From positions 2,911,444-2,975,443 of the forward strand of contig NZ_FWWY01000001.1 in assembly GCF_900176145.1 (NCBI RefSeq): 64,000 bases of DNA, given 5' to 3'. The translations under genes and the position numbers were made by a program. This DNA is from Sulfobacillus thermosulfidooxidans DSM 9293 (GTDB taxonomy: Bacteria; Bacillota; Sulfobacillia; Sulfobacillales; Sulfobacillaceae). The notes below the pieces were generated by a model, which saw nothing but the letters and a program-made list of their open reading frames with translations, was not told where the DNA came from and searched no databases. This document shows, one piece after another, positions 15,783-62,555 of the stretch (position 1 is its first letter; each line of letters opens with the position of its first letter).

Positions 15783-15859
15783 CGGGCTGTGGCGCAGTTT
15801 GGTAGCGCGCTACCTTGGGGTGGTAGAGGTCGTGGGTTCAAATCCCGCCAGTCCGACCA
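15783..15859 (+). tRNA. tRNA-Pro (anticodon GGG)
   Basis: A complete cloverleaf: acceptor CGGGCTG/CAGTCCG (one G-T pair), D-arm GCGC...GCGC, anticodon stem CTACC/GGTAG with loop TTGGGGT (anticodon GGG), T-arm GTGGG-TTCAAAT-CCCGC, discriminator A and an encoded CCA end. It reads CCC and CCU proline codons. It is transcribed as a single gene between its own promoter and terminator. Confidence 0.96.
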
Positions 15860-16296: not shown

Positions 16297-17823
16297 TTAT
16301 GGCGTCTTTTGTTGATGAACCCTCCAGTGACGGATGCCAGATAATGGGTCAAAAACATTAATCTCAAATCCTTGGACTTCTGTATTCACAAAGACTTGAT
16401 GTTGGCGCCATAACAAAAAGACTCCAGGGGGAGATTGTAATAGGACGCCTAAGGCATTTTGGGTTGACGCCGTCAAATTGGGCGCATTTAGGATATGTTT
16501 TAAGGAGTGCTGAAACTTAAAGTTACGGTATTCTCCATAATTGAGCGGACTCATAGGAGCGTATTCCTCGGCTAGAAGAGGGTAGGGGTAAGCCCGTCGT
16601 TCAATCAAGGCAACCATAAAGGCGTGATGGGTTAGAAGTGAAGGAAGATCTGCGGTGGTGACCACGTGATTGGCAATGCCACTTAGCGCCAATTGGTGGT
16701 GAATGGCGATGCCTAATAACATGGCACTTGGACTATTACCGGTTAACACCGTGAGTGACAGGGGCGGATGATGGGGAAGACTCCATTCACCGTGAATCTC
16801 TTGATATCCGGCCTGCATGAGGATTGTATGCGGATTGATTTGAGGTGGTGATACATGATAAGGGCTTCCGGGCACAAGGGGTTCATACGCCGGAACAAAT
16901 GGCTCTGCTTCAGCACGCGCTAAGGCGATCCGATTGATGAGTCCTGGGAGTGCTTTGGCTAATGCTGAAGGCACATCTTGCATGTTGTAAAGTAACATGT
17001 AATACTCGGGTCCCTGATAGTACAAAACACGAGGTTGTCCTTCAATTGTTTGTGACGTCCAATTAATATCGGGTGTTGGCGAATTATCCCACGTCGTGAT
17101 TAATGCATGCGTCTTAGGTGCACCTAAAAAATAATGAGGATTGGCAATCCATTTGATGCCTCCATGATAGGCCATTACCGGCCGATATGGTCCTGAACCC
17201 ATCATATCAGGGATTTTATTAAAAACAGGCGACGAAGCTATTTTGCTAATACGGACATTGTGTACCATGAACGCCGGTAAGATCCAGTGCCCGCTCCCGG
17301 CACCGGCAACGTCTGCCAAAAAGCTGGGGTCAGGATATCTTAATTGGATTTCAATGGTGCTCGCATTAATAATGTGTACATTGCGAATAAGCGAGGCCAG
17401 GGATTGGGAAGCGGGAATGGGAGCTTTAGGATTGGCGTAGAGCTCATAAGACCAGGCCACATCGTGAACGCTGATAGGCCGCCCGTTCCACCACTTGGCA
17501 TGGGGATTCAAATGAAAAATGTAAACGGTATAATGGTTTTTAATTTGCCATTTATCGGCAATGTCAGGAGCAATGTTACCGTTGGGCCGAATTTTGACCA
17601 AACTGTCATACATGACGCTCATAATCCAATCATGTGGTTGTCCAGCACTTTGGAAAGGATTCAGTCCAAACCGGGGGAATCCCAAGACAATTTGAGGGCG
17701 ATTAAAGATTCTCGGATGGGGTAGACTGACTTTCGTCCCGCATCCGGTTAACACCATCAGGCCGCTTAAAAGTCCCATCCACTGCTGTATTCTTTTCCGC
17801 ATAGGCATAGAATGATCTGTCAT
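16297..17823 (-). CDS. divergent peptide-binding lipoprotein (SBP family 5)
   Basis: About 508 residues; lipobox VLTGC with Cys at residue 28, then a region resembling family 5 solute-binding proteins: NPHAKWWNGRPISVHDVAWSYEL (about 107-129), MGSGPYRPVM and an ALGVLLQSPPGVFLLWRQHQVFV tail. It is clearly more divergent than the three other binding proteins here, and lacks the long KKLLEEHGW segment in its usual form. Start choice is uncertain. ATG 17823 follows AAGAAAGGA; ATG 17838 would be almost leaderless given the TATAAT just upstream; ATG 17808 is also possible. It is separated from the minus-strand permease pair by the oppositely oriented 17907 gene. Confidence 0.8.
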   Translation of the reverse strand: MTDHSMPMRKRIQQWMGLLSGLMVLTGCGTKVSLPHPRIFNRPQIVLGFPRFGLNPFQSAGQPHDWIMSVMYDSLVKIRPNGNIAPDIADKWQIKNHYTVYIFHLNPHAKWWNGRPISVHDVAWSYELYANPKAPIPASQSLASLIRNVHIINASTIEIQLRYPDPSFLADVAGAGSGHWILPAFMVHNVRISKIASSPVFNKIPDMMGSGPYRPVMAYHGGIKWIANPHYFLGAPKTHALITTWDNSPTPDINWTSQTIEGQPRVLYYQGPEYYMLLYNMQDVPSALAKALPGLINRIALARAEAEPFVPAYEPLVPGSPYHVSPPQINPHTILMQAGYQEIHGEWSLPHHPPLSLTVLTGNSPSAMLLGIAIHHQLALSGIANHVVTTADLPSLLTHHAFMVALIERRAYPYPLLAEEYAPMSPLNYGEYRNFKFQHSLKHILNAPNLTASTQNALGVLLQSPPGVFLLWRQHQVFVNTEVQGFEINVFDPLSGIRHWRVHQQKTP

Positions 17824-17845
17824 GTGTCCTTTCTTCATGTTTTAG

Positions 17846-17852: not shown

Positions 17853-17906
17853 CCAAAGAGGCGCAACAAAATTTGGGGAATAGTTGCAGACAAGGAGAAT
17901 GTGACA

Positions 17907-18335
17907 GTGAAGGCGTTATACTTTTACACCCAAGCGTTTTCGGCCCTACCTGCCCTACCCGCGATCCGTAGTGCAAGTGAAAACCCCCGCGCTATCTCTG
18001 TGAAATATGCAACGGTCATCTACTTGGCCTTGGAACAAGGAGATACGGATCAGAGTGTGAGTGGGTGTTTGCTCGATTTTATCAGGGAGCGTCGGCGTAA
18101 TGGCTTGCCCGTGGTGATTCATTCGTTCAACCATTTGTCCGATTGTCCCATGCCGCTAAATCCAGCTAAAAAACTGTATGAACGGTTGCCGCAACAACTT
18201 GTTGCTACTGGCATCGAACATATCTTGTCTACGACATTTGGCTGGATTTATGAAATCAGCATGACGGATGTCGGAGAGAGAGGCAGTAAAGGACGCATTC
18301 TTTGTGCACAGATAGCAGAACGCCCAAGCAGATAA
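17907..18335 (+). CDS. stand-alone threonyl-tRNA editing-like domain (tRNA-Thr_ED family)
   Basis: A 142-residue single-domain protein. The central VIYLALEQGD, then VVIHSFNHLSDCPMPLNPAKKLYERLP, and FGWIYEISMTDVGERGSKGR match the layout of the archaeal threonyl-tRNA synthetase editing domain: PYAHLSS...LA.P..A, and FGWYK.F near the end. That domain has a D-aminoacyl-tRNA deacylase-like fold and removes Ser from tRNA-Thr. GTG 17907 is preferred over GTG 17901 because AAGGAGA (17892-17898) is eight bases away. It sits alone between minus-strand transporter genes. Remote homology by eye, so function is inferred. Confidence 0.6.
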   Translation: MKALYFYTQAFSALPALPAIRSASENPRAISVKYATVIYLALEQGDTDQSVSGCLLDFIRERRRNGLPVVIHSFNHLSDCPMPLNPAKKLYERLPQQLVATGIEHILSTTFGWIYEISMTDVGERGSKGRILCAQIAERPSR

Positions 18336-18373: not shown

Positions 18374-19327
18374 TTAGTTGTATTGAATACGCGGATCCAC
18401 GAGCCCATAAAGTAAGTCGGCCAAGAGATTTCCAAGAATGGTTAAAAATCCTGTAATAACCACAATTCCCAAGATAACGGGATAGTCTCGTTGGTTGGCC
18501 GCATCCCAGAACAATAAGCCCATGCCCGGGTAGTTAAAAATCACTTCGACCAGTAACGCGCCCGAAAAAAGATTAGGCAGCGCAAATCCCAACAAAGTGA
18601 TTAATGGTAATACCGAATTACGTAAAGCGTGTTTGAGGACGACAACAGATTCCTTTATCCCTTTGGCCCGTGCGGTCCGTACATAATCCTGAATGAGATT
18701 CTCGCTCATAGCAGTTCGCATGTATCGGCCCCAACCGGCGACGGTAGTCAATACAATTGTAAGCACCGGTAATGTTGTATGGGCAACCCATGAGCTAAAT
18801 CCTGGATTGGGATTCAAGGGATTAGAGAGCCCTCCGCTGGGAAACCAATTCAGCGTGATTGAGAAAAACATGATAATCATGATGCCCAACCAAAAAATTG
18901 GCATCGAATAAAAGAAATAGGTTAACGCCGTCATAATGTAATCAAACTTGGTGTCATGATAGTAAGCCTGTAAACTGCCCAAAAGAATGGACAGAATATG
19001 GGCAATCAAAACACCCAAACCCACGATGGACAACGTTCTTGGCATATTTACCGCGATTAAGTGCCACACCGTTTCATTATAAAAGTAAGATGTACCCAGA
19101 TTGCCGTGTAATAATTGCCCTAACCATTGAATATACTGTACAGGTAAGGGTTTATTAAGGCCAAATTCCTGGTCCACTTGAGCAATTCGAGCTGGGGTCG
19201 CGCGTGGTCCCAGCATGGCTTGTGCCGGTCCTCCCGGAACAATGTGGACCAAGAAAAACCCAATTATCGTAATACCCAAAAGGGAGGGAATCGCCTGAAG
19301 TACGCGCCGAAAGATGTATTTTAACAT
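18374..19327 (-). CDS. peptide ABC transporter permease, OppB/DppB type (second pair)
   Basis: 317 residues, the same length as the permease at 14672 and closely similar: LKYIFRRVLQAIPSLLGITII, VPGGPAQAMLGP, DYVRTARAKGIKESVVVLKHALRNSVLPL and LLADLLYGLVDPRI. Start ATG 19327 is preceded by AGGAGGG. It lies 14 bases downstream of the OppC-like partner. The pair duplicates the plus-strand pair at 13763-15625. Confidence 0.92.
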   Translation of the reverse strand: MLKYIFRRVLQAIPSLLGITIIGFFLVHIVPGGPAQAMLGPRATPARIAQVDQEFGLNKPLPVQYIQWLGQLLHGNLGTSYFYNETVWHLIAVNMPRTLSIVGLGVLIAHILSILLGSLQAYYHDTKFDYIMTALTYFFYSMPIFWLGIMIIMFFSITLNWFPSGGLSNPLNPNPGFSSWVAHTTLPVLTIVLTTVAGWGRYMRTAMSENLIQDYVRTARAKGIKESVVVLKHALRNSVLPLITLLGFALPNLFSGALLVEVIFNYPGMGLLFWDAANQRDYPVILGIVVITGFLTILGNLLADLLYGLVDPRIQYN

Positions 19328-21583: not shown

Positions 21584-23320
21584 ATGAAACGTCGGTCTTT
21601 GACTTTACTTGCATCAGCTGTAGCGGGTTCGTCGTTACTATTGGCTGGGTGTGGAACCTCAGGAGCCTCATCGGCGTCGGCCATTAAGTCACCGGTAGGT
21701 AATGTGGCGTTGGTTGCATTGCCTGCACAAGTGTCACCTAATTGGTTTTTTCCAGTGGAATCCTCAACCGCTTTTTCGGTCTACAATTCCCAGATGAATT
21801 CACTCATGTACGTTCCGTTATTGCATATTTCCAAAACCGATGGCATTGACTATGCGAGGTCTTTAGCATCGAATGTGTCATGGAATAGTAACGGTACGGT
21901 TTATACCATTACGCTAAATAAGAAATGGCATTGGTCCAATGGAACCCCCGTTACGTCCCAAGATGTGGTTTGGACGGCGCAACTGCTTTTGGCAACGAGT
22001 TCAAATTCCTCTTCTCTCCCATGGGGATATGGGGGCGCAGGTATTGGCGGATTGCCAACCCGGTGGCAAAGTGTGACGGCTGACGGGCCTTATAAAGTGA
22101 TCGTGACATTAAACAAACCGTCTAACCCTCAGTGGTTCTTACACAACGGGTTAGGGCAAATAGTTCCTGCGCCTAAAGCGGTATGGGATATTCATAAGAA
22201 CATGGACAACGAGCTGAAATTTATCCAGTCTGTTGCCAATGATCCCGGGTCTAAATACTTTGATGTTGTGGATGGAGCCTTTAAATTTGATGCAGCGGCT
22301 TCGAAGACCAATAATCAATATTGGACATTTGTGCCGAATCCGAATTATGACGGACACAAAGCATCCATTCAAAAATTGGTCTATGTCTATGAATCCAGCA
22401 ACAGTGCAGAGTTTGGCGCATTAAAGCAAAACAAGATTAATGTAGGGTATTTGCCATTTTCTCTGTACGATTCGCGAAACCAATTGGTTGATGACCGATT
22501 TAGCACGGCTTATCCATTTGGATTCAATTACCTGGTGTTGAACTTTAGTGACAAGGCGCCAGGGAACTTCGGTCAAATTATTAGACACCGTTATGTTCGC
22601 CAAGCCTTAGAGATGGGAATTAACCAGCAGGGCATGATCAATAGTTTCTATCATGGGCACGGCGTAACCGAATTTAGTCCAATTCCTGCGAAACCTGTGA
22701 CGCAGTTCTATGATTCGAACTTAACCAATCCAGCGCCCTACAACCCGGCCGCAGGAAAGAAGTTGCTTGAAGACCATGGCTGGAAACTGGTTAATGGGGT
22801 TATGACTAAGGGCAACCTCAAATTAGCCTTTACATTAGACTATGTCTCGGGCGTGTCGGCTGTTGAGAACCAGGTGCAATTGATGAAACAAGACTGGGCT
22901 CAAGAAGGCATTCAGGTGAACTTAGAATCCCAGCCATTTAACACCTTGATTGCAGACACCAACCAAGCTAACGCAAACAAGTGGCAGGTTGTATGGTGGG
23001 GTGGTGGATGGACATATGAACCTGATTACTACCCCACTGGGGGAGGATTATTCGCGACGGGTTCATCGGCTAACTATGGTGCCTACCAGAGCACAACGAT
23101 GAACAATCTCATCCAAGCCACCTACGAACCTGGCACATCGAGTCAGATTCGGACTCGGATGGACGCGTATTTGGCTTATGCCGCCAAACAACTTCCTGTG
23201 TTGTGGATGCCTTGGACGGCGACCTTTAACGAAACCGCTAACTATATCCACGGGGTTAATTCGACTTATAATCCTATTACCAACACGCAATATCCCAATT
23301 ACTGGACCATTAATCACTAA
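21584..23320 (+). CDS. peptide-binding lipoprotein, tandem paralogue A
   Basis: 578 residues; signal peptide and lipobox LLLAGC with C23, then a Ser/Ala-rich linker. Family 5 binding-protein features include KWHWSNGTPVTSQDVVWTAQLL, DGPYKVIVTLNKPSNPQWF and KKLLEDHGWKL. Start ATG 21584 with GGGGAGGACAT upstream. It is strikingly similar to the gene at 23838: residues about 206-263 differ from that gene's 210-267 at only one or two positions, although the DNA has many silent differences. It has its own terminator, so it is a single-gene unit. No permease or ATPase is attached. Confidence 0.9.
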   Translation: MKRRSLTLLASAVAGSSLLLAGCGTSGASSASAIKSPVGNVALVALPAQVSPNWFFPVESSTAFSVYNSQMNSLMYVPLLHISKTDGIDYARSLASNVSWNSNGTVYTITLNKKWHWSNGTPVTSQDVVWTAQLLLATSSNSSSLPWGYGGAGIGGLPTRWQSVTADGPYKVIVTLNKPSNPQWFLHNGLGQIVPAPKAVWDIHKNMDNELKFIQSVANDPGSKYFDVVDGAFKFDAAASKTNNQYWTFVPNPNYDGHKASIQKLVYVYESSNSAEFGALKQNKINVGYLPFSLYDSRNQLVDDRFSTAYPFGFNYLVLNFSDKAPGNFGQIIRHRYVRQALEMGINQQGMINSFYHGHGVTEFSPIPAKPVTQFYDSNLTNPAPYNPAAGKKLLEDHGWKLVNGVMTKGNLKLAFTLDYVSGVSAVENQVQLMKQDWAQEGIQVNLESQPFNTLIADTNQANANKWQVVWWGGGWTYEPDYYPTGGGLFATGSSANYGAYQSTTMNNLIQATYEPGTSSQIRTRMDAYLAYAAKQLPVLWMPWTATFNETANYIHGVNSTYNPITNTQYPNYWTINH

Positions 23321-60046: not shown

Positions 60047-61165
60047 GTGCCCGAATTTCGATTTCGGGCCCATATGAGCAAAGCTGTTCGAGTACGTGAT
60101 GTCATCATAGGGGGCGGGGCCCCTGTTGTGGTGCAAGGTATGACCAAAACCGACACGAGAAATGTCAAAGCGACACTGGATGAAATTTATCGGTACGTGG
60201 ATGTAGGATGTGAAATTGTTCGGGTCGCGGTGCCGGATCATGAGGCAGCTGAAGCCGTCAAGGAGATTGTGGCTCACTCACCGATTCCCGTTGTGGCGGA
60301 TATTCATTTTGATTATCGACTGGCGCTTGAAGTCATCAAAGCAGGGGTCGATAAATTACGTTTGAACCCGGGCAACATTGGTGGGCGTGATCGCGTCGAA
60401 CAAGTCGTCCGGGCGGCAAAGGAACGCATGATTCCCATTCGCATTGGTGTGAATTCCGGTTCAATCGAAAAGAACCTGCTGCATGATTACGGTCGGACCG
60501 CCGAGACGTTGGTGAAATCTGCGGAGAGCCATATCCAAATCTTAAATGATTTGGATTATGACAATATTGTGGTATCACTAAAGGCATCTGACGTGCCGAC
60601 TATGGTAGCGGCCTATCGTTTGATGGCGAAAACCTATGACTACCCTCTTCATTTAGGCGTAACCGAAGCGGGTACGCTCTTTCAAGGCACCATCAAGTCG
60701 GCGATTGGCATTGGAACCTTATTAGCCGAAGGTATTGGAGACACCATCCGGGTTTCCTTGACTGCACCCGGCGAAGAAGAAATTCGCGTTGCCTGGGAAA
60801 TTCTCAAAAGCTTGAAATTGCGGGATCGTGGGGCAAATATTGTCGCTTGCCCGACCTGTGGGCGCTTACAATTTGATATGTGGCCCGTGACCAATGAGCT
60901 CGAAAGACGGCTAGCGACCATTGCTGAACCCATTACGGTGGCGGTCATGGGCTGCGCAGTGAACGGACCCGGTGAAGCCCGTGAAGCCGATGTCGGTCTT
61001 GCGGGGGGAAAGAATATGGGGTTGATTTTCCGTCACGGGGAAATCGTGCGCCGTGTCGATCAAAAGGATATGGTAGAAGAATTGTGGAAAGAAATTTTGG
61101 ATGCAGCTGAGGAGGTTCGTGCGGGTGGACAAAGTTCTCAAGGAAATCACCCCCAAGTCAAGTGA
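60047..61165 (+). CDS. ispG: 4-hydroxy-3-methylbut-2-enyl diphosphate synthase
   Basis: 372 residues from GTG 60047. IspG features: VVVQGMTKTDTRNVKATLDEI, DIHFDYRLALEV, KLRLNPGNIG, IRIGVNSGSIEKN, and the 4Fe-4S cysteines in CPTCGRLQFD and GCAVNGPGEA. Penultimate MEP enzyme. Start is odd: AAAGGAGG ends one base before GTG 60047, while ATG 60074 is 28 bases away but separated by the hairpin GCCCGAA/TTCGGGC. The residues before ATG 60074 align with the N-terminus of Bacillus IspG, favouring the GTG. Confidence 0.93.
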   Translation: MPEFRFRAHMSKAVRVRDVIIGGGAPVVVQGMTKTDTRNVKATLDEIYRYVDVGCEIVRVAVPDHEAAEAVKEIVAHSPIPVVADIHFDYRLALEVIKAGVDKLRLNPGNIGGRDRVEQVVRAAKERMIPIRIGVNSGSIEKNLLHDYGRTAETLVKSAESHIQILNDLDYDNIVVSLKASDVPTMVAAYRLMAKTYDYPLHLGVTEAGTLFQGTIKSAIGIGTLLAEGIGDTIRVSLTAPGEEEIRVAWEILKSLKLRDRGANIVACPTCGRLQFDMWPVTNELERRLATIAEPITVAVMGCAVNGPGEAREADVGLAGGKNMGLIFRHGEIVRRVDQKDMVEELWKEILDAAEEVRAGGQSSQGNHPQVK

Positions 61166-62555
61166 TTTTTCTCAATGGTATGTGGATGTTATAAGAAAAG
61201 CCGACATGGTTGATTACGCTCCCATGAAGGGCTTTATGGTCATGAAGCCCTATAGTTACCGCATTTGGGAGTTTATTCAAGAGGCGATGGATCGCCGATT
61301 TAAGGAAACCGGTCATGAGAATGCCTATTTTCCTCTCTTGATTCCAGAACATCTCTTAGCCAAGGAAGCTGAACATATTGAAGGATTCTCCGCAGAAGTG
61401 GCGTGGGTCACCATGGGAGGGCGTGAAGTGTTGCCCGAACGATTGGCCGTGAGACCGACTTCAGAAACAATCATTGGTGCGATGTACTCCCAGTGGATTC
61501 ATTCCTACCGGGACCTGCCGGTGTTAATTAACCAATGGGCCAATGTCCTGCGGTGGGAAAAAGCGACTCGGCCGTTTTTGCGCACGACTGAATTTTTGTG
61601 GCAAGAGGGACATACAGTACACCGTACCGCCGACGAAGCCTTACGAGAAACCTTGCAGCAATTAGAGATTTACCGGGAGGTTATTGAGGAATATTTAGCT
61701 ATCCCTGTGATTCAAGGGGTCAAGAGTGCAGGAGAACGCTTTGCGGGAGCTGTTGATACCTATACCTTGGAGTCGTTAATGGGGGATGGACGGGCTCTTC
61801 AGACTGCCACCTCGCACTTTCTGGGCCAGCATTTTTCCAAGGCATTCGACATCCAATTTTTAGATGAAGATGGTGTGCTGAAATATGGGTGGACTACATC
61901 ATGGGGCAGTTCTACTCGCATGATCGGTGCATTAATCATGGTTCACGGCGATGACAAAGGCCTGCGCCTGCCGCCGAAAGTTGCGCCCATTCAAGTGGTC
62001 ATTGTACCGATTGGACGAGGAGAGGATCGGGAAAAAGTCCTAGCGCATGCGAGAGATTTAGCCGCGAGTTTGACCGCCATTGCGCGCGTTAAATTAGATG
62101 ATCGGGATGAATTTACCCCAGGCTACAAGTTTAATGATTGGGAAATGCGTGGGGTGCCCTTGCGCATTGAAATCGGTCCTAAGGATATGGCCAAAAATCA
62201 AGTGATGATTGCTAGACGCGACACCGGGGAAAAGATCAGTGTGGCGGAATCCGACTTACTGACTAAAGTACCCGAATTATTAAATGCTGTGCAGGACGAA
62301 CTATTCCGTCAGGCCAAAGAATTTCAACAATCGCACTCGTATGCGATTGCCAATTACCAGGAAATGGATCAATATGGATATCGAGGCTTTTTCCGGGGCG
62401 ACTGGTGTGGAAGCGAAGAGTGTGCAACGCGCCTAAAAACTGAAACGGGTATCACGATTCGGTGCTTGCCCTTTGGCGAATCTCCCGTAACAGGCCACTG
62501 CGTTGTTTGTGATGAACCAAGCCAATACCGTGCGTTGTTCGCCCGGGCCTATTAA
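61125..62555 (+). CDS. proS: prolyl-tRNA synthetase, eukaryote/archaea-like form
   Basis: 476 residues, without the bacterial editing insertion. Class II motifs: RPTSETIIGAMYSQW (motif 2 region upstream), RWEKATRPFLRTTEFLWQEGHTVH, TATSHFLGQHFSKAFDI and a C-terminal zinc-like CGSEECA...CLPFGE...GHCVVCDEP. GTG 61125 has GAGGAGG nine bases upstream and lies 41 bases inside ispG. Archaeal-type ProRS occurs in several bacteria, so not by itself proof of recent transfer. Confidence 0.94.
   Translation: MDKVLKEITPKSSDFSQWYVDVIRKADMVDYAPMKGFMVMKPYSYRIWEFIQEAMDRRFKETGHENAYFPLLIPEHLLAKEAEHIEGFSAEVAWVTMGGREVLPERLAVRPTSETIIGAMYSQWIHSYRDLPVLINQWANVLRWEKATRPFLRTTEFLWQEGHTVHRTADEALRETLQQLEIYREVIEEYLAIPVIQGVKSAGERFAGAVDTYTLESLMGDGRALQTATSHFLGQHFSKAFDIQFLDEDGVLKYGWTTSWGSSTRMIGALIMVHGDDKGLRLPPKVAPIQVVIVPIGRGEDREKVLAHARDLAASLTAIARVKLDDRDEFTPGYKFNDWEMRGVPLRIEIGPKDMAKNQVMIARRDTGEKISVAESDLLTKVPELLNAVQDELFRQAKEFQQSHSYAIANYQEMDQYGYRGFFRGDWCGSEECATRLKTETGITIRCLPFGESPVTGHCVVCDEPSQYRALFARAY

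Follow-up and report, generated by a model that had tools for sequence, protein, structure and literature searches.

The window analyzed here, a 64,000-nucleotide stretch of the genome of the acid-mine bacterium Sulfobacillus thermosulfidooxidans DSM 9293, carries an open reading frame (17907..18335, +) for a free-standing protein of 142 AA, which its PF08915 match and an AlphaFold model place in the tRNA-Thr_ED (PF08915) family with a DTD-like fold. Two GTG codons could serve as its start; we prefer the one at 17907, because a Shine-Dalgarno-like AAGGAG (17892..17897, +) stands 9 nt before it and just 3 nt before the alternative GTG at 17901, and because the proteins of relatives start at the equivalent point. 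A sigma-70-type promoter was not recognized in the DNA around the gene, although this says little. The closest pair within the genus gave a dN/dS of ~0.15 (dS 0.71), and the gene is under purifying selection; this ratio, together with conservation across the genus, indicates that the reading frame is a real gene, and the free 142-residue protein that a preliminary description had read from the DNA at this position was confirmed.

The gene's place is conserved across Sulfobacillus, between a divergent gene for an SBP_bac_5 solute-binding protein (16297..17838, −; a partial family match, kept in 7/7 genus loci) and a convergent gene for a DppB/OppB-type oligopeptide permease subunit (18374..19327, −; a BPD_transp_1 family match, kept in each of the six genus loci long enough to include it). 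Unlike the full-length copy at 21584–23320, the SBP_bac_5 protein at 16297–17838 (−) matches its family over just ~150 residues (89–244), and it may have diverged or degenerated as a binding protein, though it is kept across the genus. A tRNA-Pro(GGG) gene (15783..15859, +) lies in the same block, ~2 kb from the gene, in 7/7 genus loci and with no shown link to it; because the whole block is conserved, this proximity does not count as separate evidence for one. Elsewhere in the window, a 484-AA class II synthetase (61101..62555, +) adjoins an IspG-like gene, and by eye we take it to be a short ProRS of the archaeal/eukaryote type, without the bacterial insertion domain.

We found that almost the entire protein matches PF08915, described in Pfam as the ‘archaea-specific editing domain of threonyl-tRNA synthetase’ (41.2 bits vs. 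a curated cut-off of 30.2 bits, E 2.2e-10), and that it is the sole match to this family in the 3.86-Mb genome. By phmmer, its residues 1–120 align with the editing domain of Aeropyrum pernix (E 6.7e-6), its PDB relatives by sequence were A. pernix archaeal editing-domain entries only (E about 7e-6), and a profile-profile comparison of the genus family with three archaeal domains gave E 3.1e-6. AlphaFold run on the lone sequence gave a low-confidence model (pLDDT 44), which was left unused; the monomer model that replaced it, built with 11 bacterial sequences, reached a pLDDT of 92.5 and a pTM of 0.86. When this model was searched with Foldseek and VIA-align, archaeal ThrRS editing domains ranked first and DTD second (Z 18.9 and about 15–16, respectively, vs. 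5.6 for the next unrelated fold). The best match was ApNTD (135 residues aligned, 2.1 Å; Foldseek E 1.6e-11), with residues 1..135 of the model lying on residues 1..136 of the archaeal chain, and identity to the archaeal editing domains in the structural alignment was 14–18%; a search of BFVD returned zero matches at E ≤ 0.001. The preliminary description had assigned the protein to the archaeal-type ThrRS editing family and anticipated a DTD-like fold, staking its reading on at least one of the two being found; both were.

Compared with the N-terminal editing domain that archaeal ThrRS carries in cis (P. abyssi, M. jannaschii), the window protein shares the full-length fold, the F-G segment, and a counterpart of His83, but it is a free single domain, with neither a catalytic nor an anticodon-binding domain, and differs at the positions of Tyr120, Lys121, Glu134, Pro80, and Ala82. 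Its best match in both sequence and structure, A. pernix ThrRS-2/Ser-tRNA(Thr) hydrolase (4RR6), is a trans editor in archaea; unlike the window protein, however, that enzyme has an anticodon-binding domain and an intact Y115/K116/E129, and the NF011500 model for archaeal ThrRS-2/Ser-tRNA(Thr) hydrolase gave no match to the 142-AA protein.

DTD (PF02580) shares the fold and is itself a free-standing trans editor in bacteria, and D-aminoacyl-tRNA was one of the two substrates suggested in the preliminary description. That the protein is a second D-aminoacyl-tRNA deacylase would agree with its structural similarity to DTD and with the presence of Met in DTD at the position of archaeal Lys121 (PMC4491819), which implies that Lys is unneeded for D-specific action. 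DTD, however, has Gly-cisPro and SQFTL motifs, and the 142-AA sequence contains no Gly-Pro pair anywhere and no SQFTL; no PF02580 match was listed for it up to E 1, its nearest structures are archaeal editing domains, and a separate full DTD gene (197 bits) is already present in the genome. We therefore regard this activity as very unlikely.

According to Ahmad et al. (PMC4491819), seven side chains of the P. abyssi domain lie no more than 6 Å from the scissile bond: Pro80, Phe81, Ala82, His83, Tyr120, and Lys121, together with Glu134 of the partner subunit, which binds the substrate amino group across the subunit interface. By alignment, the counterparts of these seven in the window protein are Ser73, Phe74, Asn75, His76, Ile114, Tyr115, and Lys128, respectively. 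The segment H72-S-F-N-H76 (18120..18134, +), which corresponds to Y/P/(F,Y)/A/H of the archaeal domains (PabNTD 79–83; roles from PMC4491819), keeps His83 and Phe81 and replaces Pro80 with Ser and Ala82 with Asn. F111-G-W113 (18237..18245, +), which in the archaeal domain is a main-chain segment facing the terminal adenosine (PMC4491819), is kept; I114-Y115 (18246..18251, +) replaces archaeal Tyr120-Lys121 (ApNTD Y115-K116), and K128 (18288..18290, +) replaces archaeal Glu134 (ApNTD E129), the latter in a column that adjoins an alignment gap, where the structural alignment agrees with the one-residue shift also present at F-G-W. Among the 11 bacterial copies, Tyr never occurs at position 120 (Ile, Val, Thr, Arg, or Phe instead), Lys never at position 121 (Tyr, His, or Asn instead), and Glu never at position 134, where every copy has Lys or Arg, so that the serine-pocket residues (Tyr120, Lys121, Glu134) are missing from the 142-AA protein as from all of these copies. 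The counterpart of His83 (His76) is absent from just one bacterial copy (L027), and F11, D46, H72, F74, L77, A87, T109, G112, and W113 are invariant. Two segments, NHLSDCPMPLNPAKKLYERL and FGWIYEI, had been singled out in the preliminary description as resembling the archaeal editing domain; both are present in the translation, and the likeness holds for the fold residues (F-G-W and H-L) but not for the two substrate residues, the very positions at which FGWIYEI departs from archaeal FGWYK.

These replacements bear on the other suggested substrate, Ser-tRNA(Thr). A classical Ser-tRNA(Thr) hydrolase acting in trans, as a backup to the N2 domain of ThrRS, would be in keeping with the PF08915 family, the fold, and the retained counterpart of His83, and Y120A and E134A mutants stay active in two archaeal enzymes, those of P. 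abyssi and A. pernix, which can do without Tyr120 or Glu134 (the M. jannaschii enzyme does require the Glu; PMC4491819). Lys121, however, which places the catalytic water, is required for Ser-tRNA(Thr) editing in three archaea, whose enzymes are all severely compromised by the K121M change (PMC4491819); here this Lys is a Tyr, and the charge of Glu134 is reversed in all bacterial copies. Moreover, the host ThrRS is a standard bacterial enzyme (a full-length TIGR00418 match of 705 bits, with a tRNA_SAD domain) and carries intact HSSAH and CSGPH motifs, which we take to be the N2 editing motifs known from E. coli ThrRS. Because this N2-bearing ThrRS and a full DTD are both present, the protein fills no obvious gap in the clearance of Ser-tRNA(Thr) or D-aminoacyl-tRNA, and simple redundancy is disfavored.

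The discriminator base was also considered. All three host tRNA(Thr) genes (G000:C1; L047, L054, L055) carry U73, as do the tRNA(Gly) genes seen and the tRNA(Cys) of the window genome; the discriminator of E. coli tRNA(Thr) is A73. According to a passage in PMC8762117 that cites Novoa 2015, the archaeal editing domain relies on U73, which would favor a Ser-tRNA(Thr) hydrolase; but tRNA(Thr) with U73 occurs in 139/154 genomes of the class, whether the gene is present or absent, and we rejected the idea that the two go together. Overall, we judge a role in clearing Ser-tRNA(Thr) to be unlikely.

The closest named relative of the protein is found in Sulfobacillus thermotolerans Kr1 (49% identity). 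Within the family, 7/34 genomes have the gene, all of one genus, and these comprise 7/7 near-complete Sulfobacillus genomes; the one remaining genome of the genus is just 61% complete. A profile of the genus copies detected the gene in 10/154 genomes of the class, the three beyond the genus being G514 (L026), G507 (L027), and G468 (L028); L027 scores 21.9 bits, under the Pfam cut-off, and sits on a long branch in the tree, and its membership is therefore tentative. In a 398-genome draw of the phylum, two different models found only the window genome and G002 (L003), on whose contig other genes are of bacterial type (e.g. signal-peptidase-II-like and RluD-like proteins, recognized by eye). In the tree, the copies of the genus and its order-level relatives group in a single clade (99/99), separated from the archaeal domains, whereas L028 and L003 fall on the archaeal side; the archaeal set of this tree, three PDB sequences, is too small to give a direction of transfer. 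Searches of viral contigs (three queries) and of plasmid and phage records (tblastn) returned zero relatives, and hence no sign of a mobile carrier. We found no publications in the literature on the Sulfobacillus copies of this PF08915 protein.

Members outside the genus sit in unrelated neighborhoods. In G507, a gene for an R2-like ligand-binding oxidase (1946–2956, −, in L027 coordinates) precedes the editing-like gene, ~50 bp upstream of it, and in G514, a gene for an R2-like/AurF-like diiron protein (1983–2951, −, in L026 coordinates) is its convergent neighbor, so that R2-like neighbors occur in 2/2 order members outside the genus. In G468, a DUF2250 winged-helix gene (1175–1699, −, in L028 coordinates) is directly downstream; DUF2250 is a family described from archaea.

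Editing domains outside ThrRS have been reported as archaeal trans editors, as neighbors of archaeal SepCysS, and as fusions with a small number of bacterial SepRS (PMC5424206, PMC8762117), and for the last two groups a role in policing Ser-tRNA(Cys) or Sep-tRNA(Cys) has been proposed. The bacterial SepRS-tRNA-Thr-ED fusions and the stand-alone genes beside archaeal SepCysS resemble the present case in being archaeal-type editing domains outside ThrRS; the published bacterial occurrences that we found in the literature are exclusively SepRS fusions (PMC5424206, PMC8762117), and Lys or Arg at position 134 could suit a phosphate, so that a similar role of the window protein in a SepRS/SepCysS system might be envisaged. 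However, the published fusions and stand-alone copies are tied to SepRS/SepCysS, and no SepRS was found in the window genome; across the gene-bearing genomes, 0/11 exceeded the TIGR00470 cut-off (weak matches of 18–37 bits vs. 381, that of the window genome being a PheRS core domain), in a search that works, as 2/14 control genomes did exceed it. The published fusions, furthermore, retain the full serine motif, which these bacterial copies do not. We accordingly disfavor this role as exceedingly improbable.

Could the protein have lost catalysis altogether? A non-catalytic descendant of the fold, binding tRNA ends or a nucleotide or regulating the surrounding peptide permease genes, would account for the catalytic-site replacements and for the conserved position within a peptide-transport block. 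Against this, the F-G-W segment and the His83 site are nearly fixed, as they would be for a working A76 pocket, and the non-genus members, with their different surroundings, do not share the block; we consider such a descendant rather unlikely. Rather, the invariant fold and site residues of the 11 bacterial copies and the low dN/dS indicate that a function is kept, and the pocket change is consistent rather than random decay, because Tyr120, Lys121, and Glu134 are replaced in all 11 copies, with Lys or Arg invariably standing in for Glu134. Combined with this consistent rebuilding, conservation of the fold and of the A76-facing segment argues for a deacylase of altered specificity over decay.

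We therefore favor, with somewhat better than even confidence, an RNA-assisted aminoacyl-tRNA deacylase that acts in trans on a changed substrate; its fold is established by the searches above, and from that fold and the residue pattern we infer tRNA binding, deacylase activity, and changed specificity. As a single-domain PF08915 protein, and probably a dimer, it would work in trans, at the 3′ terminus of an aminoacylated tRNA. If it resembles its solved relatives in this, the main chain of F-G-W would hold A76, whose 2′-OH, the catalytic group in the archaeal enzymes (PMC4491819), would activate the ester-cleaving water; with activation left to the 2′-OH, side chains would mainly shape the amino-acid pocket. 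The rebuilt pocket (Tyr120 to Ile, Lys121 to Tyr, Glu134 to Lys, Pro80 to Ser, and Ala82 to Asn) would accept an amino acid other than L-serine and remove it from tRNA, in addition to the work of the cell's ordinary ThrRS and DTD. Since the serine-holding residues are replaced, the protein probably clears some wrongly loaded tRNA other than Ser-tRNA(Thr). Activity can survive such changes in that catalysis rests on the A76 2′-OH and two of the replaced residues are dispensable in P. abyssi and A. pernix; the replacements, read with the published mutants (PMC4491819), suggest that the scaffold could stay catalytic with the known serine pocket gone. All three archaeal domains deacylate Gly-tRNA(Gly) better than Ser-tRNA(Thr) (PMC4491819).

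Several points weigh against this preferred reading. Tyr, His, or Asn at position 121 may not replace Lys121 in placing the catalytic water; the gene context holds no link to translation, with peptide-transport neighbors in the genus and different ones elsewhere; and the comparison uses three archaeal sequences, with the Glu134 column beside an alignment gap. What stands of the preliminary description is the family, the fold, and the free-standing state of the protein; its pair of proposed substrates is not supported.

The DTD-like fold has been described as split between DTD in bacteria and eukaryotes and the ThrRS editing domain in archaea (PMC4491819). While the fold family is known, a bacterial, single-domain member with a rewritten pocket is new here: one bacterium has both DTD and the archaeal-type domain, the latter free-standing and with a rebuilt substrate pocket. 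That these copies represent a trans-editing family of their own, for a substrate class covered by no known editor, is conceivable though doubtful; in that reading, the uniform charge reversal of Glu134, at the position that contacts the substrate amino group, to Lys or Arg would fit an aminoacyl-tRNA with a blocked amino group, or one with an acidic or phosphorylated amino acid. Their natural pocket variants make the claim of catalysis without pocket side chains directly testable, and they may reveal a mischarging error absent from the current list.
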